From Arthrobacter sp. P2b (GTDB lineage: Bacteria > Actinomycetota > Actinomycetes > Actinomycetales > Micrococcaceae), in assembly GCF_900168295.1 (NCBI RefSeq), contig NZ_FVZL01000007.1:1-64000 (forward strand): 64,000 nucleotides of DNA, in the 5' to 3' direction. The notes beneath the pieces were generated by a model. The model ran no database searches, had not been told where the DNA came from, and saw only the letters and a program-made list of their open reading frames with translations. The translations under genes were made by a program, and so were the position numbers. Below, piece by piece: positions 3,757-23,338 of the stretch; position 1 is the stretch's first letter, and each line of letters begins with the position of its first letter.

Positions 3757-4431
3757 CTAGCTCGCCCGGCGCCGGCCCGCTAGAGAGACCCGGCCCTCGG
3801 CCTGGATGGCCCTGACGGCGGTGTCCAGATAGGTCCGGGTTTCCGTGGAGTTGGCCAGCTGTACCAGCTCCGCGGCCACCACAACCAGCTTGACGTTCCT
3901 GTGGCTGCTGGTGCTCACGAGCATCTTGAAAGCGTCGTCGGCGCCCATCTTCAGCTGGCCCATCAAGATGCCGCGGGCCTGGTCGATGATGCTGCGGGTG
4001 GACGTGGCACCGAGGACGGCGTCCCGGGCGATCTGCTCCGTTTCGCGCTGCAAGGTGGTGGTGAGGTCCACCATGACCCCTTCGATCACGGTGACCACGC
4101 CTTTATCGTTCATGATTCCGTCGCCGGATGTGAGTACCCGACGGGTCCGTCCGCGGGCGTCAATGATGCGGTGGTACATGCAGAAGTAGCCGCCGGTCTG
4201 CGCCACCTGGGCGACGATGGCCTCGCACCTGGGCCGGTCCTCCGGGTGCTTGTGGGCGTACAGCAGGTCCAGGGTGGGGACCACCTCGCCCCGCTGGTAT
4301 CCGTGCAGCTGGTACATGCCGTCGGACCAGTGGATCTTCATCCCGTCCATGTCCACATGAAAAGTCCCCGCGACGCATTCGTTGTCACCAAGGGCACTCG
4401 AAAACGTATAAGGGCCGTTCAGGTCAGTCAC
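3757..4431 (-). CDS. PAS and ANTAR domain antiterminator-type regulator
   Basis: A 224-residue signalling protein. The N-terminal half (about 20-115) looks like a PAS fold of the PAS_3 type (HWSDGMYQLHGYQRGEVVPTLDLL, then HPEDR and a YHRIIDARGRTR strand). The C-terminal part (about 135-195) is an ANTAR RNA-binding module (RSIIDQARGILMGQLKMGADDAFKML). ANTAR proteins bind hairpins in nascent RNA and prevent termination, so this is expected to couple a small-molecule or redox signal to antitermination. I place the start at the GTG at 4431, because GGAGGTG precedes it at the right spacing; an ATG 21 bp upstream overlaps that site. It stands alone, head to head with the copper promoter. Such PAS-ANTAR proteins are abundant in Arthrobacter; the target RNAs are unknown. 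Confidence 0.85.
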   Translation of the reverse strand: MTDLNGPYTFSSALGDNECVAGTFHVDMDGMKIHWSDGMYQLHGYQRGEVVPTLDLLYAHKHPEDRPRCEAIVAQVAQTGGYFCMYHRIIDARGRTRRVLTSGDGIMNDKGVVTVIEGVMVDLTTTLQRETEQIARDAVLGATSTRSIIDQARGILMGQLKMGADDAFKMLVSTSSHRNVKLVVVAAELVQLANSTETRTYLDTAVRAIQAEGRVSLAGRRRAS

Positions 4432-4990: not shown

Positions 4991-7129
4991 ATGCAAGACC
5001 ATACGCAGCACCACCATCACGACGACGGCAGCCGGGAAAGCCGTACGCTCACCGAAGCGCGCGTGTCGTCAGTCCCTGCCGGACACATGCACGGCAGTCA
5101 CCCACAGCACAACGGCGATGACCACACCGTCCACACCCATGGCCAGCACGCCGGCCACAGCACCGCGATGTTCAAGAACCGGTTCTGGCTCACGCTGGCA
5201 CTGTCCGTCCCCGTGGTCTACTTCAGCCCCATGGTGGGCCACATCTTCGGCTACATGGCCCCGATGTTCCCCGGCTCCGCCTGGATCCCGCCCGTCCTGG
5301 GCACCGTGATTTTCCTGTACGGCGGGCAGCCGTTCCTGAAAGGCGGGCTGCAGGAGCTCAGGGACCGCCGGCCGGGCATGATGCTCCTGATCGGCATGGC
5401 CATCACCGTGGCGTTCGTGGCCTCGTGGATCACCAGCCTGGGTATCGGCGGCTTCGATCTCGATTTCTGGTGGGAGCTCGCCCTGCTGGTGGCCATCATG
5501 CTGCTGGGCCACTGGATCGAGATGCGGGCCCTGGGTTCGGCGCAGGGTGCTTTGGACGCCCTGGCCGCGCTGTTGCCGGATGAAGCGGAACGGATCACCG
5601 AAGGCGGCACGGAAACCGTCGCTGTCTCCGTGCTCCGGCCCGATGACCTTGTCCTGGTCCGCTCCGGTGCACGGATGCCGGCCGACGGGACCGTGGTTGA
5701 AGGACAGGCCGAGTTCGACGAGTCAATGATCACCGGCGAGTCCAAAACGGTCGCCCGCGGCCCCGGCGACACGGTTGTGGCTGGTACGGTGGCCACGGAT
5801 ACCAGTGTCCGCGTGCGGGTGACCGCCGTGGGCGATGACACTGCACTGGCCGGGATCCAGCGCCTCGTGGCGGAAGCCCAGGCCTCGTCCTCGCGGGCCC
5901 AGGCCCTGGCTGACAGGGCCGCAGCTTTCCTCTTCTACTTCGCCACCGTGGCCGGCGTCCTGACCTTCATCGCCTGGACCCTGCTGGGCAGTGTCCCGGA
6001 GGCCGTCACCCGCGCCGTCACCGTGCTGGTCATTGCCTGCCCGCACGCCCTGGGCCTGGCCATTCCGCTGGTGATCGCGATCTCCACCGAACAGGCAGCC
6101 CGGGCGGGCGTGCTGATCAAGAACCGGATGGCGCTGGAGCGGATGCGGACCATTGACGTTGTCCTCTTCGACAAGACCGGCACCCTCACCACGGGCGAAC
6201 CGGAACTTGTGGACATCGCCACTGCAGAGGGTGTGGATGCCGACCAGCTGCTGGCACTGGCCGCCGCCGTCGAATCCGACAGTGAGCATCCCGTGGCCCG
6301 GGCCATCGTGCGGGCCGCCGCCGCCCGCGGCCTTGAACTCCCCGCCGCCAGCGGCTTCAGCTCACTGACCGGTCGTGGAGTCCGGGCCGTGGTGGACGGC
6401 CGGACCGTGCACGTCGGCGGGCCCGCGCTCCTGCGCGAGCTTGCCGCCGTCGAACCCGCTGCCCTGGCCGCCACCACCCGCGGGTGGATGGACCGCGGTG
6501 CCGCCGTCCTGCACGTGATGGACGACGGCGGCCGCGTGCTGGGGGCGGTCAGCCTGGAGGATGCGGTGCGGGCGGAGTCGCGGCAGGCGGTTGCGGCGCT
6601 GCAGAACCGCGGCATCAAGGTGGCCATGGTCACCGGCGATGCCCGGCAGGTGGCAGAGGCCGTGGCTGCGGACCTGAAGATCGACGAGGTGTTCGCCGAG
6701 GTCCTGCCTGCGGACAAGGACAAGAAGGTGGCTGAACTCCAGGCCCGCGGCCTGAAGGTTGCCATGGTGGGCGACGGCGTAAATGACTCCCCGGCGCTGG
6801 CACGGGCCGAGGTGGGCATCGCGATCGGCGCCGGCACGGATGTGGCCATGGAGTCCGCCGGCGTGGTGCTGGCCGGCAACGACCCGCGGGCCGTGCTGTC
6901 CATGGTGGACCTGTCCCGGGCGAGCTACCGGAAGATGTGGCAGAACCTGGTGTGGGCCACCGGCTACAACGTGCTGTCCGTGCCGTTGGCCGCGGGCGTC
7001 CTGGCTTTCGCCGGGGTGGTCCTCTCCCCCGCGGCCGGTGCCGTGCTGATGTCCGCGTCCACCATCGTGGTGGCGCTGAACGCCCAGCTGCTCCGGCGCC
7101 TGAAACTGAACCCCGCGGCGGTACGTTAG
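4991..7129 (+). CDS. copB: CopB-type copper-translocating P-type ATPase
   Basis: A P1B-type ATPase of 712 residues that exports copper across the membrane using ATP. The N-terminus is His-rich (HHHHDD, then about ten more His by residue 55) instead of carrying CxxC metal-binding domains. The transmembrane metal site is CPH at residues 350-352, the mark of the CopB (P1B-3) subgroup, which is linked with Cu2+/Ag+. The phosphorylation motif DKTGTLT begins at Asp394, the actuator TGES is near residue 250, and GDGVNDSPAL marks the hinge. The ATG follows GAGGAGG. It is probably expressed from the CsoR-type promoter about 380 bp upstream, through the remnant gene. DUF6153 and DUF305 genes follow in the same direction. 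Confidence 0.93.
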   Translation: MQDHTQHHHHDDGSRESRTLTEARVSSVPAGHMHGSHPQHNGDDHTVHTHGQHAGHSTAMFKNRFWLTLALSVPVVYFSPMVGHIFGYMAPMFPGSAWIPPVLGTVIFLYGGQPFLKGGLQELRDRRPGMMLLIGMAITVAFVASWITSLGIGGFDLDFWWELALLVAIMLLGHWIEMRALGSAQGALDALAALLPDEAERITEGGTETVAVSVLRPDDLVLVRSGARMPADGTVVEGQAEFDESMITGESKTVARGPGDTVVAGTVATDTSVRVRVTAVGDDTALAGIQRLVAEAQASSSRAQALADRAAAFLFYFATVAGVLTFIAWTLLGSVPEAVTRAVTVLVIACPHALGLAIPLVIAISTEQAARAGVLIKNRMALERMRTIDVVLFDKTGTLTTGEPELVDIATAEGVDADQLLALAAAVESDSEHPVARAIVRAAAARGLELPAASGFSSLTGRGVRAVVDGRTVHVGGPALLRELAAVEPAALAATTRGWMDRGAAVLHVMDDGGRVLGAVSLEDAVRAESRQAVAALQNRGIKVAMVTGDARQVAEAVAADLKIDEVFAEVLPADKDKKVAELQARGLKVAMVGDGVNDSPALARAEVGIAIGAGTDVAMESAGVVLAGNDPRAVLSMVDLSRASYRKMWQNLVWATGYNVLSVPLAAGVLAFAGVVLSPAAGAVLMSASTIVVALNAQLLRRLKLNPAAVR

Positions 7130-7186
7130 ACACAACGCCCCATCACCTTCCGCCGCTATTCACACAACGCCCCATCACCCGTGGTC
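7130..7186. repeat. 32-bp tandem repeat array, copy 2 (about 1.8 units)
   Basis: Units start at 7130 and 7162, each with ACACAACGCCCCATCACC. The core GCCCCATCACCTTCCGC aligns with the CTCTCTCACCTTTCGC core of the other arrays, and its complement matches the third unit of the array at 9833-9960. It begins directly after the copB stop codon. Confidence 0.7.
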
Positions 7187-7221
7187 ACCAGACCCGCCCC
7201 TGCCGAAAGGAGGAACCGCCA

Positions 7222-7707
7222 ATGCCTGGATCCATGCACGGCCTGGCGGCCCTCCTGGGCAGGGCCGCACTGCTGGCAGGTCTTTTGGTGATCGTGGCCG
7301 GAATCCTCGGCATGCACGTCATGACGGCCAGCCATTCTGCGCACGCGTCGCACCCCGTTACTCACGGAACAGTGCTGCAGGATGCCGCCGTCCTGCATGA
7401 CCACAGCTCTGCACCGCGGCACACCTCTGCACACCACTCCACGGCCGGGCACTCTGCTGCGGACCGCCCGGGGCACGCGACGCAACCAAGCCTTGCACCG
7501 CCGTCGTGCGAAGGTTCCTGCCCGGGAATGCAAACCTCCGGTACGTCCTGCGTCCCGCTGGCCAAGGCCGGATCGCTCACCGTCGCTCCGCCCGAGCGAT
7601 CCGCCGCCGCCAGTCCGGTCCTTGCGGGTCGCCTCGGTGGGGCAGGCATCTACTCCTATGTCCCGGCGAGCCCCACGCCCTGCGAACTGTCCATCAGCCG
7701 GACGTAA
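7222..7707 (+). CDS. DUF6153 family membrane/secreted protein
   Basis: A 161-residue protein starting at the ATG at 7222, preceded by AAAGGAGG. Residues 7-31 form one hydrophobic segment (LAALLGRAALLAGLLVIVAGILGMHVM), which is either a signal anchor or an uncleaved signal. The exported part is His-rich (about a dozen His between residues 30 and 90) and contains a CEGSCPGM motif and two more Cys, which suggests metal binding outside the membrane. I assign DUF6153 from the MHGLAALLG start and the GILGMHVM segment. Its place between the copper ATPase and a DUF305 lipoprotein supports a role in copper handling. Function is not established. Confidence 0.7.
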   Translation: MPGSMHGLAALLGRAALLAGLLVIVAGILGMHVMTASHSAHASHPVTHGTVLQDAAVLHDHSSAPRHTSAHHSTAGHSAADRPGHATQPSLAPPSCEGSCPGMQTSGTSCVPLAKAGSLTVAPPERSAAASPVLAGRLGGAGIYSYVPASPTPCELSISRT

Positions 7708-7776
7708 ACGGGACTGCAGCGTGCTCCCGCACGCATTAACGACCCAGTCCAGTTACTTTCCTGAAGGACATTTCAC

Positions 7777-8397
7777 GTGAACACGAAGATCAAAACCCTG
7801 TCCATTGCTGCCGCCCTGGCAGCCTCGCTCGGCCTTGCCGGGTGCGCCGCCAACTCCGGAAATCCCGGCAGCAACGGCATGCACGGCAGCGGCCATGCCA
7901 GCTCCAGCCCGATGTCCAGCATGATGCCGGATGCCGGCGCCGAGCATAACCAGGCGGACATCATGTTCGCCCAGATGATGATTCCGCACCACGCCCAGGC
8001 CGTGGAGATGAGCGACATCGTCCTGGCCAAGCCTGGCCTGCCTGCCGAGATCACGGCCCTGGCAACCAAGATCAAGGATGCCCAGGCCCCGGAAATCGAG
8101 ACCATGACCGGCTGGCTCAAAAGCTGGAACGCGCCCGTGATGGGTGACCACTCCGGGCACGGGATGTCCGGCATGGTGGACGACGACGGTATCGATAAGC
8201 TCAAAGCCGCGTCGGGAGCGGACGCTGTCCGGCTGTTCCTGGAGCAGATGATCGGGCACCACGAAGGAGCCGTTGACATGGCACAACAGGAGATCGGCGC
8301 CGGCAAGTACCCCGAATCCATCCAGCTCGCCCGCGATATTGTCGCGGCCCAGGAATCCGAGATCGCCGAGATGAAGCAGCTCCTGGCCGGCCTCTGA
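7777..8397 (+). CDS. DUF305 family lipoprotein, probable copper binding
   Basis: A 206-residue lipoprotein with a GTG start at 7777 after CTGAAGGA. The signal peptide ends in a lipobox (LAGCA, about residues 19-23), followed by a Ser/Gly/Met-rich linker. Two DUF305 repeats follow, each with the family hallmark of an HH pair and Met: MMIPHHAQAVEM (about residues 67-78) and MIGHHEGAVDM (about 159-169). DUF305 proteins are four-helix-bundle-like, and one member, CopM, binds Cu+ outside the cell. The gene is the last of the copper block, and its 3' end runs into a repeat array that separates it from a convergent monooxygenase. Copper binding here is inferred from family and context. Confidence 0.85.
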   Translation: MNTKIKTLSIAAALAASLGLAGCAANSGNPGSNGMHGSGHASSSPMSSMMPDAGAEHNQADIMFAQMMIPHHAQAVEMSDIVLAKPGLPAEITALATKIKDAQAPEIETMTGWLKSWNAPVMGDHSGHGMSGMVDDDGIDKLKAASGADAVRLFLEQMIGHHEGAVDMAQQEIGAGKYPESIQLARDIVAAQESEIAEMKQLLAGL

Positions 8398-19982: not shown

Positions 19983-20738
19983 ATGGAACATGACATGCGT
20001 CCCCTGACGGACGACGAACTGATGTCGGAGCAGGCCACAGCTTTGCCGGACAAGGAAGTCGCGTCCGTCCTCGACCTGAACGCGGACCTGGACCTGGGGA
20101 TTGATGCCGCGGCACCCATCGATTTGGCGGTTGCCGCCAACGCCAACGTAGCTGCCCCGATCGACGCGGCCGCCTCGGCGAACATCCTTTCCTTTGGCTC
20201 GGAGGCCCAGGCATTGGCGGACCAGGGCGTGGTCATCGAGCAGGGCATCGAGGCTGACGCGAACGCGGAATCCACCCAGGACAGCACCATCGACCAGGCT
20301 AATGACACGGTCGACGACGGCGATACCGCGGCAGACACCGGAACCACTGAGGCGGGCAGCGCAGCAGGAACGGCCGACGGCGGGAGCCTCCTTCCTGACG
20401 GCACCCTTCCCGATGGCACGCTTCCGGACGGCGTCCTTCCCGAAGAGAGCCTGCCCGACGTCGGTGCGCTGCCGGTGGACCCGGCGGCCGCCCTCGACGG
20501 GGACCTGCTCAACGTCAACGTGGACCTGGCCGCGGACGCGGACATCGCCGCCCCGATCAACGGCGCCGTGGCAGCAAATGCCAACGTGGCCGCCCCGATC
20601 GACGCCGCCGTGGCAGCGAACATCGGCTCCATCGACAGCCAGGCCTACGCCGTGGCCGAGCAGGACGCCATCATTTCGCAGCACATCGAGGGCCAGGCCA
20701 ACGCCTCTGCCGACCAGCAGTCCAACCTCGAACAGTAA
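19983..20738 (+). CDS. Ala/Asp-rich protein with two similar modules
   Basis: A 251-residue acidic protein I cannot assign to a characterised family. The start at 19983 follows GGAGG. Residues 1-28 (MEHDMRPLTDDELMSEQATA...) contain no signal peptide. Two similar modules follow: about 29-105 and 175-250. Each runs LNaDLD/VNVDLA, then AAPI-D/NG-xAVAANANVAAPIDAA, a short S-x-x-S-x-A-xA segment, and an acidic end rich in Asn, Ala and Gln (IEADANAEST; IEGQANASAD). Between them, LPDGT-like units are repeated (about 136-159). The module pattern suggests a beta-helix-like or coiled surface. It lies 6 bp before a PqqD-M50 metalloprotease gene, and a role as substrate or partner of that protein is inferred. 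Confidence 0.75.
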   Translation: MEHDMRPLTDDELMSEQATALPDKEVASVLDLNADLDLGIDAAAPIDLAVAANANVAAPIDAAASANILSFGSEAQALADQGVVIEQGIEADANAESTQDSTIDQANDTVDDGDTAADTGTTEAGSAAGTADGGSLLPDGTLPDGTLPDGVLPEESLPDVGALPVDPAAALDGDLLNVNVDLAADADIAAPINGAVAANANVAAPIDAAVAANIGSIDSQAYAVAEQDAIISQHIEGQANASADQQSNLEQ

Positions 20739-20744
20739 GCACGG

Positions 20745-23123
20745 ATGAGCCACGCCACCGGCGGGCCGCGCCCCGAGGCCGGCCCGCCGTCGTCCCATGC
20801 CTCCCTCGCCGAGCGCCCGCTGCAGGTCCCCGTGCGCGCCGACGGCGTCCAGTTGCTGGGCCAGTCCGAGGGATCCGGTTACCGGGAAGCTCCCTCGCTG
20901 GTCCGCCGGGCCGACGGCCAGACCCTGCAGCTCACCCGGCTGCTTTATCTGGTGCTGGAAGGTGCTGACGGAACCCGGGACGTGGAGGAGATCGCACAGC
21001 ACGCCACCCAAGGGTCGGGGCGGCTGGTCAGCGCGGAGAACGTGCGCACGCTGATGGACTCCCAGCTGCTGCCGATGGGACTGCTCCGCCTGGCGGACGG
21101 CTCCCAGCCGGAGGTGAAGAAAGCAGACCCGCTCCTCGGTATGCGGTTCCGGTACACCGTGACGGACCCCGAACGCACCAGGAAAATCACGGCCCCCTTC
21201 GCGGCACTGTTCAACCCGCTGATCGTGGTGGCCGTTACTGCCGCATTCCTGGCTGCCTGCTGGTGGGTGCTGATGGTGAAGGGCCTGGGCTCCGCCACGC
21301 ATGAGGCGTTCGCCAATCCAGCGCTGCTGCTGCTGATTTTTGCCATCACCGTCCTATCGGCCGGCTTCCACGAGTTCGGCCATGCCGCGGCCGCGCGCAA
21401 GGGCGGCGCAACGCCGGGCGCCATGGGTGCGGGCCTGTACCTCGTGTGGCCTGCCTTTTTCACGGACGTCACTGACTCGTACCGGCTGAGCAGGGGCGGC
21501 CGCCTCCGCACGGACCTCGGCGGCCTGTACTTCAACGCGATTGTGGCTGTGGCCATCATGGGGCTGTGGTGGGCCACCGGCTTTGATGCGCTGCTGCTGG
21601 TGGTGGTCACCCAGATCCTGCAAATGGTCCGGCAGTTGCTCCCGCTGGTGCGGTTCGACGGGTACCACATCCTGGCGGACACCACCGGAGTGCCCGACCT
21701 CTTCCAGCGCATCAAACCCACCCTCCTGGGCCTGCTGCCCTGGCATTGGGGGAGGCCCGAAAACAAGGTGCTCAAGCCGTGGGCCCGAGCCGTGGTGACT
21801 GTATGGGTGCTGGTCACCGTGCCGCTGCTGCTGTTCAGCCTGGCCATGATGGTGCTCGCCCTGCCGCGGCTGCTGGCCACCGCCTGGGATAGCGCCAGCA
21901 GACAGCAGGACATGCTCGCTGCCAGCCTCTCCGACGGGGATCTGGCCGGCGCTGCCGTGCGCGCATTGGCGATCGCCGCCGTCGCGCTGCCCATGCTCGG
22001 GATGCTGTACATCCTGTTCCGGCTGCTGCGGCAGCTGGTGACCGGCCTCTGGAAGAAGACCCGGGGCAAGGTCCTCCAGCGGACCGCCGCCATGGCCGCC
22101 GTGGCGGCACTGCTGGCCGGGCTCGGCTGGGCATGGTGGCCCGACGGCGGCACGTACCGTCCCGTGCAGCCTTACGAACGCGGCACGCTGGCTGACGCCA
22201 CCTCGTCAATCGTTCCGCAGGGCAGCACCGTGCTGCGTGAAGGCCGCAGCGGCACAACCGTTGCACTCTGGCCGGAAGACGCCGCCAAGCCGACCCGGGA
22301 GAACCCCCAGCTGAGCATGGTGCTGGTGCCGGCGGAGAAGAGCGGCTCCGGCACCGCGTCCGCTGCAACTGCTGCGGGCACCGCGGCACCGTCCTGGGTG
22401 TTCCCGTTCGACCGGCCGGCCGCGCCGGAGGAGGACGGGAACCAGGCGCTGGCGGTGAACACCACCGACGGTTCGGTGACGTACAGTGTGGCTTTTGCGC
22501 TGGTGTGGGCCGAGGACGGCGAACCCGTAGATACCCGGAACGAGGCCTACGCCTTCGCCAACTGCACCGGGTGTGCCGCCGTGGCGGTGGGTTTCCAGGT
22601 GGTGCTCATCGTTGGCGAGGCGGACGTCATCGTCCCGGAAAACCTGTCGGCCGCGGCAAATTACAACTGCGTGGACTGCCTCACGTATGCGCTGGCCAGC
22701 CAGCTGGTCCTCACCATGGACGGGCCGCTGGGCACGAGCAGCCTTGAACAGCTCAATGCCTTGTGGGCCGAGATCGCTGAATACGGCCGGAACATCCAGA
22801 ACGTTCCCCTCTCGGAAATCCAGGCCCGGATCGCCGCGTACAAGGAGCAGATCACCGCAATCATCAAGGCGGATCCCAGCGCCACCAGGACCACAGGGAC
22901 GCCAGCTCCCACGGGAACAGCCGCACCTACCGGAACTAACGCCCCGGGCGGCGCGCCCACAGGTCCCGCTTTCCAGGCGCCGGGCGGAGGGGCACCGGCA
23001 ACACAGCCCTCCGTGGGTGACCCGCCGCCGTCGTACGCCCCCATTGAGACGCCGCTGCCAACGGCGGATACTGGGGGCACGGCCCCCGCCGTGGAGCCCC
23101 AACCCACCGCCAACCCCAGCTAG
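20745..23123 (+). CDS. PqqD-domain M50-like membrane zinc metalloprotease
   Basis: A 792-residue integral membrane protein. Residues about 47-115 match a PqqD-like winged-helix domain (LQLTRLLYLVLEGADGTRDVEEIAQ, then a GLL end), the fold used as RiPP recognition element. The membrane part starts near 155; HEFGH at 209-213 is the zinc-binding HExxH, and RFDGYHIL at 303-310 the M50-type second motif. Further helices follow up to about 460. The exported C-terminal region carries two NCxxC motifs (C607/C610 and C642/C645) in similar settings, then a Thr/Pro/Gly-rich tail from about 710. This resembles the putative peptide zinc metalloprotease class (YydH-like). It starts 6 bp after the Ala-rich gene, probably by translational coupling. 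Cleavage or export of that protein is a hypothesis. Confidence 0.8.
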   Translation: MSHATGGPRPEAGPPSSHASLAERPLQVPVRADGVQLLGQSEGSGYREAPSLVRRADGQTLQLTRLLYLVLEGADGTRDVEEIAQHATQGSGRLVSAENVRTLMDSQLLPMGLLRLADGSQPEVKKADPLLGMRFRYTVTDPERTRKITAPFAALFNPLIVVAVTAAFLAACWWVLMVKGLGSATHEAFANPALLLLIFAITVLSAGFHEFGHAAAARKGGATPGAMGAGLYLVWPAFFTDVTDSYRLSRGGRLRTDLGGLYFNAIVAVAIMGLWWATGFDALLLVVVTQILQMVRQLLPLVRFDGYHILADTTGVPDLFQRIKPTLLGLLPWHWGRPENKVLKPWARAVVTVWVLVTVPLLLFSLAMMVLALPRLLATAWDSASRQQDMLAASLSDGDLAGAAVRALAIAAVALPMLGMLYILFRLLRQLVTGLWKKTRGKVLQRTAAMAAVAALLAGLGWAWWPDGGTYRPVQPYERGTLADATSSIVPQGSTVLREGRSGTTVALWPEDAAKPTRENPQLSMVLVPAEKSGSGTASAATAAGTAAPSWVFPFDRPAAPEEDGNQALAVNTTDGSVTYSVAFALVWAEDGEPVDTRNEAYAFANCTGCAAVAVGFQVVLIVGEADVIVPENLSAAANYNCVDCLTYALASQLVLTMDGPLGTSSLEQLNALWAEIAEYGRNIQNVPLSEIQARIAAYKEQITAIIKADPSATRTTGTPAPTGTAAPTGTNAPGGAPTGPAFQAPGGGAPATQPSVGDPPPSYAPIETPLPTADTGGTAPAVEPQPTANPS

Positions 23124-23131
23124 GAGAACAC

Positions 23132-23338
23132 ATGTCATTGAGCAAGGGAACATCCGTGGAGTGGAATACGTCGCAGGGCAAGACGCACGGCAAGATCATC
23201 GAGAAGAAAACCGCCGACTTCGAACTGGACGGCCACACGCACCGGGCCAGCGAGGATGAGCCGCAGTACGTTGTGGAATCCGCCAAGACCGGCGCCCGTG
23301 CCGCACACAAGGCCTCCGCCCTGACAGAGAAGAAGTAG
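23132..23338 (+). CDS. DUF2945 family protein
   Basis: A 68-residue protein with a tudor-like small beta-barrel of the DUF2945 (hypervirulence-associated) family: KGTSVEWNTSQGKTHGKIIEKKTADF, then the conserved A-S-x-x-E-P-Q-Y-V-V-E-S stretch and a K-rich tail. The ATG follows TAGGAGA. It is 8 bp after the metalloprotease gene and 4 bp before the sulfide:quinone oxidoreductase gene, so it is probably in one transcript with both. Members are small and widespread in actinobacteria; the function is not known. Confidence 0.85.
   Translation: MSLSKGTSVEWNTSQGKTHGKIIEKKTADFELDGHTHRASEDEPQYVVESAKTGARAAHKASALTEKK

Follow-up and report, generated by a model that had tools for sequence, protein, structure and literature searches.

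A predicted fusion of an RRE domain and a site-2 protease, linked to a leader-bearing repeat protein, suggests a route for repeat-peptide maturation in actinobacteria

What might a repetitive, acidic protein and a membrane protease encoded 6 bp apart be doing together? The question is raised by two genes in a 64,000-nt stretch of DNA from the soil bacterium Arthrobacter sp. P2b (contig NZ_FVZL01000007.1, positions 1 to 64,000; hereafter the window). The upstream gene, P0001 (positions 19983-20738, forward strand, from the ATG at 19983 to the end of the stop codon), encodes a precursor-like, Ala/Asp/Asn-rich protein of 251 residues with two modules. The downstream gene, P0002 (20745-23123, forward strand, again from ATG to the end of the stop codon), encodes a 792-residue protein that we describe as a fusion of an RRE domain, a site-2 protease (S2P) and a CxxC-repeat domain; the coordinates, lengths and spacing given in the initial annotation of the window were correct. 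RRE domains are the leader-binding parts of peptide natural-product pathways. On balance, we think it probable that P0002 is an RRE-guided intramembrane leader peptidase that matures repeat peptides, and that these assemble with a related surface domain.

The pairing of the two genes, which the initial annotation had picked out from a single sequence, recurs across many actinobacterial genomes. A P0001 homologue (59-90% identical) lies just upstream of the protease gene in all 49 close loci, which come from Arthrobacter, Pseudarthrobacter, one Blastococcus and one metagenome-assembled genome labelled Microbacterium. More distant protease matches were found in 15 of 99 genomes sampled from the order and 34 of 148 from the class (both at E<=1e-6), and in 14 of 149 from the phylum (E<=1e-10); these samples overlap and contain the window's own genome. 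We took 33 order and class regions, consisting of the stronger matches plus L127 and leaving aside the fragments in G210 and the lower-scoring matches, which are other M50 proteins, and a leader-bearing open reading frame (ORF) adjoins the protease gene in 28 of them. Four of the other five (L108, L123, L125 and L126) end at an upstream contig end, and L127, at 27% identity, has no precursor; in G178, at a contig end, the gene pair is present in region L162. In L115-L120 the precursors give weak scores (E 2e-7 to 6e-2); they were identified by eye from the leader motif beside the protease. Among nine held-out regions from other classes, eight have a precursor, those of L167, L169 and L170 being weak matches (E 0.001-0.004) and those of L165 lying on the opposite strand; the only region without one is L171 (36% identity, with an internal TGA). 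Precursors also lie beside the protease in 13 of 13 held-out genus regions, which are chosen places among the protease-bearing genomes, and in both Streptomyces plasmid loci. Within the genus, the protease is found in 68 of 121 genomes at E<=1e-60, so the system is common, not universal. Of the 148 class genomes, 21 match the precursor profile, 22 the profile of the CxxC domain and 20 both, and every one of these falls inside the 34 protease genomes, with co-occurrence p-values that ignore relatedness among the genomes. Eleven protease genomes match neither profile: five (G134, G182, G193, G203 and G222) show divergent ELLPxRxTL precursors by eye, and six (G115, G151, G152, G155, G167 and G202) have just weak protease relatives (E 1e-7 to 1e-14). 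The recurrent linkage and co-occurrence rule out coincidence as the explanation for the adjacency of P0001 and P0002.

P0001 is a protein under strong purifying selection. When the window was compared with 12 homologues, changes at codon positions 1, 2 and 3 numbered 189, 165 and 1032, codons with a single change were synonymous in 848 cases and non-synonymous in 142, and a crude dN/dS-like ratio came to 0.056. We rejected the reading of P0001 as a chance low-complexity ORF because its substitutions pile up at third positions. Its two similar modules, noticed earlier, occupy residues 29-105 (20067-20297, forward strand) and 175-251 (20505-20735, forward strand; without a leader of its own) and, aligned over 77 residues, are 56% identical (E=2e-7); the LPDGT-type repeats said to join them correspond to a 15-nt tandem repeat at 20391-20465 on the same strand, in a linker whose length differs between relatives. 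The protein has a net charge of -46, lacks Cys, contains a single Lys and a single Arg, and ends in LEQ, where relatives end in GN, SN, ST, DM, QG or QQ. We saw no signal peptide. P0001 matches no Pfam family even at E<=10 and nothing in NCBIfam or PHROGs, and its short relatives match no Pfam or NCBIfam family above cut-off, in keeping with the earlier description of the modules as unlike known cores.

The putative leader of P0001 (residues 1-30; 19983-20072, forward strand) contains LTDDELM and LPDKEVAS, and residues L21, P22, D23, K24, E25 and V26 are invariant in 28 close sequences. It aligns with the leaders of ~70-residue precursors from other families and classes. Elsewhere, the counterpart of P0001 is a set of up to three such genes with a common leader, mostly LTxEELxxxxxExLPDRExMSL, followed typically by a core of the form INANLAAPVNAAVAANVLSDNSxAYANAxQxxxIxQ. 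A hidden Markov model (HMM) of 14 short precursors, built with the window excluded, matches P0001 with E=4.6e-16 (for a database size of 5000); since it aligns the leader and both modules, P0001 looks like a fusion of short precursors in which one leader was retained. Unrelated cores also follow the leader, next to the protease in L167, L169 and L170 and at a site apart from it in L160; the core of L168 is divergent, and in L068 and L120 Gly/Ser/Asn-rich cores follow ELLPERAVL and VEMLPTRETL. A profile built without the L160 row found the L160 gene at E=4.2e-6, whereas its recovery with the profile of leader alignment A8, which includes L160, is circular. The leader thus behaves as a recognition element would, and comparison of these sequences supports its being separable from the core. 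The earlier idea of a recognition leader, which P0002 would bind, gains from this separability.

Two of these loci have features of their own. The L160 gene (3652-3837) encodes 61 residues, with the shared leader LSDAELAAEAAAEALPDREAMSL and the unrelated core, on a contig other than that of the protease (G107), and lies near a gene for a protein of BNR/Sortilin type whose N-terminus resembles a signal peptide. In L068, a Streptomyces plasmid, the precursors at 3903-4145 and 5780-6076 have an ELLPERAVLS leader and Gly-rich cores.

Is P0002 equipped to recognise and cut such a leader? Its N-terminal domain (residues 26-118; 20820-21098, forward strand) is predicted by AlphaFold to form three strands followed by three helices. 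As a whole the model, for which 49 sequences were used, is poor (mean predicted local distance difference test score, pLDDT, 56.1), and this domain is fairly confident, with block pLDDT of 80-90 over residues 61-120 and 54-83 over residues 31-60. Structural alignment with VIA-align matched it to the TbiB1-leader complex (5v1v; Z 7.5, rmsd 3.0) over 84 of its 88 residues, and to the further RRE-containing structures TruD (4bs9, Z 6.1), a heterocyclase (4v1t, Z 5.9) and ThcOx (5lq4, Z 5.7). One description of RRE domains puts the helices first (PMC7470986), whereas the P0002 domain has strands first. Within the following membrane part, the M50-like S2P core (21312-21662, forward strand) contains HEFGH at residues 209-213 and a second motif, DGYH, beginning at D305. 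Both motifs, already recognised in the initial annotation, are invariant in 49 aligned sequences, an alignment that omits L038 (Arthrobacter sp. OVS8), where the P0002 homologue (6040-8369) is broken over two frames, possibly by a genuine lesion or a sequencing error. Residues 190-306 align with the Methanocaldococcus S2P (3b4r; Z 6.6, 100 residues, rmsd 3.4).

Sequence families gave a similar picture. The NCBIfam model daptide_HExxH (NF041824) scores 108 bits over residues 48-322 (E=5.7e-31), below its cut-off of 300, and YydH/LiaK (NF058609) matches residues 183-314 with E=8.5e-9 and 35.4 bits, below its cut-off of 225. Pfam PF02163 reaches E=0.2 only, and PqqD (PF05402) has no match to P0002. 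The PqqD-like N-terminus proposed earlier is supported by the predicted fold and by the NCBIfam match from residue 48, and not by Pfam. Foldseek with the whole model returned no match at E<=0.001, sequence searches of the PDB returned nothing relevant, and PHROGs held no matching family. Site-2 protease cores sit in the membrane. We conclude that P0002 is predicted to carry an N-terminal RRE/PqqD-type fold and an S2P core with HExxH and a distal Asp in its membrane core.

Several features escaped the initial annotation: the CxxC domain, its occurrence in split and fused forms, and its likeness to the P0001 modules. The C-terminal domain (residues 556-715; 22410-22889, forward strand) consists of two repeats with the spacing A-x-A...C-x-x-C...A...Q-x-V and is followed by a Pro/Thr/Gly/Ala-rich low-complexity tail (22890-23123, forward strand) whose sequence varies among relatives. 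In other genomes, the homologue of the CxxC domain is a separate protein encoded next to the protease, with an N-terminus that by eye resembles a signal peptide, and is apparently secreted. We therefore take the domain in P0002 to be outward-facing, more because the split proteins look secreted than from the hydropathy count. In a tree of 52 rows (21 fused, 14 split and 17 outside both groups), all 21 fused rows fall on one side of one branch with support 100/100. The scanned CxxC proteins, like the scanned precursors, match no Pfam or NCBIfam family above cut-off, with weak stray matches only. An HMM of the core peptide scored at least 8 bits in nine of 25 CxxC sequences and in none of 1500 shuffles, which preserve composition only, and a comparison of the precursor core profile with that of the CxxC repeat gave E=2.4e-4 and a probability of 44%. 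These values suggest a weak resemblance between cores and CxxC repeats that goes beyond composition. In L008 (4349-5143) and L010 (4242-5096), a stand-alone paralogue of the C-terminal part of P0002 (48% and 56% identity, respectively) lies upstream of the precursor.

We propose that P0001 is a ribosomal precursor composed of an N-terminal leader and two repeat modules, that the RRE domain of P0002 would bind the leader, and that the fused S2P would cut the leader off at the membrane and probably hand the modules outward. Since the P0001 repeats resemble the outward-facing domain of P0002, the gene set may construct some feature of the cell surface. Once outside, the acidic modules would join up with the related CxxC-repeat domain displayed by P0002 or be laid down on it, and the protease could double as a surface anchor or nucleator. 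In other lineages, one to three ~70-residue precursors would share the job with a protease and a CxxC protein that is secreted. We infer each of these steps, from leader binding through cleavage and export to assembly. Maturation or export was also the role suggested in the initial annotation, and it is partly supported, by the linkage, the RRE-like predicted fold and the separable leader.

A number of points weigh against this proposal. None of cleavage, export and assembly was observed. The hydropathy of P0001 peaks at only 1.25, so contact with the S2P inside the membrane is hard to explain, and its AlphaFold model is unreadable (mean pLDDT 48.6). A product of ~220 residues with an acidic linker of ~70 residues would be unusual for an RRE-guided system. 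The structural Z-scores of P0002 are all below 8 and, by the tool's own note, possibly reflect just a common arrangement; indeed, structures not recognised as RRE rank equally high (PKMT2, Z 7.5; Rv2067c, Z 7.3), and over the membrane part an ESX-5 chain (Z 7.0) scores above the S2P. Hydropathy by eye gives six or seven segments before the CxxC domain and an additional one inside it (residues 612-630), leaving the topology unsettled. A leader-only profile has matches in 17 of 20 genomes, yet none at E<=0.05 in the genome from which the window comes, and the likeness between cores and CxxC repeats is weak, with 16 of the 25 CxxC sequences below 8 bits.

Known systems contain parts of this arrangement. 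For daptides, leader removal is stated to be carried out by the RRE-dependent intramembrane peptidase MpaP (PMC10036551). Like P0002, MpaP (NF041824) is an RRE-fused intramembrane metalloprotease adjoining precursor genes, whereas P0002 scores under the cut-off of that family and has an additional CxxC domain. P0001 and its relatives, unlike daptide precursors, share no C-terminal Thr, and the 25 commonest families of neighbouring genes here include neither aminotransferase nor alcohol dehydrogenase. With its protease below the family cut-off and the invariant C-terminal Thr absent from the precursor, the pair does not belong with the daptides. EpeP/YydH and LiaK (NF058609) are likewise S2P-type proteases; in P0002, however, the match to that family excludes the RRE domain, its score is far under the cut-off, and radical SAM is absent from the 25 commonest neighbour families, so we did not assign the pair to the epipeptides (YydF/EpeX). 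EpeP is considered both to cut its small peptide and to export it (PMC10885120), and is the precedent here for export without a transporter. In TmcP, the S2P-clan leader peptidase of a membrane-set ribosomally synthesized and post-translationally modified peptide (RiPP), mutation of the catalytic motif stops leader removal (PMC13252029). TmcP differs from P0002 in belonging to the DUF3267 family, the text of that paper lacks the term RRE, and the TMcin system, unlike the gene set described here, involves a DsbA-like protein as well as an ABC transporter (PMC13252029). Among surface amyloids, chaplins, rodlins and curli resemble the P0001 set in their short repeats, whereas P0001 has no signal peptide and, in Pfam at E<=10, no known repeat family. 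Curli consist of short repeats, and a minor related subunit seeds their assembly. P0001 and P0002 share with RRE-dependent RiPP systems a predicted RRE-type domain and an adjacent precursor whose leader is conserved apart from its core. Searches of open-licence PubMed Central papers, outside which most subscription journals lie, found no account of the system, which the initial annotation had called possibly undescribed. RRE domains and S2P leader peptidases are known; joined to a large repeat protein without evident modification and to a paralogous domain facing outward, they are undescribed as far as those searches reach.

The genes around the pair bear on what the product might do. Eleven same-genus regions (L192-L202) form a sister subtype in which the protease is 39-45% identical to P0002, the precursors have ELLPxRETL-type leaders, and two kinds of precursor occur in 10 of the 11 regions. 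Those proteases inspected for it (L195, L196 and L193) have a MinD/ParA-like P-loop stretch at the C-terminus; Pfam ATPase families lie above cut-off in the related L121 (AAA_31, E=3.5e-11) and L113 (CbiA, E=5.3e-10) and below it in L195 (E=0.015). The protease frame of L202 stops early, at 622 residues. L201 has one intact precursor and, ~2.8 kb off, a truncated leader-bearing ORF (1453-1626), as if the locus had suffered an insertion. We called 605 genes in 41 distant and 18 near regions, and apart from the protease and the precursor none recurs across many of them; the split CxxC proteins join the protease cluster via the fusions and are hence uncounted there. The largest other clusters in the 41 distant regions are a presumed regulator family (seven regions) and an ABC transporter (six). 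Within 4 kb there are 240 neighbours, and of the nearest 130 we scanned 87 with Pfam, after precursors, CxxC proteins, probable false ORFs and two very long frames had been removed by eye. The 25 most frequent of the 112 families matched include no recurrent RiPP modification enzyme and no radical SAM, YcaO or lanthionine family, and the counts were two of 87 for methyltransferase domains, three for ABC_tran and four for BTAD.

The proposal that we favour could be extended to a complete, so far undescribed leader-addressed route for building surface structures, in which the RRE-S2P protein draws leader-tagged repeat proteins to the membrane, cuts them and lets them out with neither a Sec signal nor an ABC transporter, its own paralogous CxxC domain being the template for their assembly; we regard this as possible, and doubtful. 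Somewhat less probable is an antimicrobial akin to daptides or epipeptides, with the protease freeing peptides that act on the membranes of competitors. The closest curated protease families do come from daptide and epipeptide systems, and the two different short precursors of the sister subtype recall two-peptide bacteriocins. However, many cores are near-identical across classes (INANLAAPVNAAVAANVLSDNS and similar), unlike diversifying antimicrobial cores, the size and negative charge of P0001 fit poorly, and the 25 most frequent families around the loci include no radical SAM, YcaO or lanthionine family, with ABC_tran in three of 87 neighbours.

We also consider it unlikely that the leader serves only to direct P0001 to P0002, where it would be retained or folded, with no cutting and with the modules remaining inside the cell. 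That cleavage is unobserved, that P0001 lacks a signal peptide and that its most hydrophobic stretch is weak are as this explanation would have it; the invariance of the catalytic motifs argues against it, as does the secreted-looking CxxC protein of split systems, which places one co-occurring partner outside the cell. Site-2 proteases act in signalling, and cleavage of P0001 might instead, as part of regulated proteolysis, yield a signal to which the producing cell or its kin respond. BTAD regulators near sister-subtype precursors would suit such a role (L195 and L200 by Pfam, with lookalikes by eye in L196, L113, L114 and L121). We give signalling the least credence of these explanations, since the product is large and repetitive, and clusters reaching only seven and six of 41 regions mean that there is no constant receptor or regulator.

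In RRE-guided maturation of repeat peptides, as we propose it for P0001 and P0002, the RRE domain is fused to an intramembrane protease and adjoins a large repeat protein, in several actinobacterial classes and with no recurrent modifying enzyme seen. If the processing occurs, RRE-guided maturation would extend to structural proteins or unmodified peptides, the gene pair would be a compact module for tagged export, and it would provide a clean test of outward product release by site-2 proteases. If the surface-building route is also correct, RRE recognition would serve protein secretion and polymer assembly, beyond peptide chemistry. In either case, the common leader is a handle for finding more substrates.

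Three further observations concern nearby or related genes. A Hva1_TUDOR gene (Pfam; 23132-23338 of the window) begins 8 bp past P0002, and nothing links it to the pair. A weak relative of the protease in L059 (57-1376) lies in a different RRE-M50 context, next to a gene whose product we take to be YcaO-like. Lastly, small basic peptides that lack the leader and have a core-like Ala/Val/Asn stretch are encoded next to precursors in L163 (3830-3991), L164 (7828-8055) and L166 (4240-4488).

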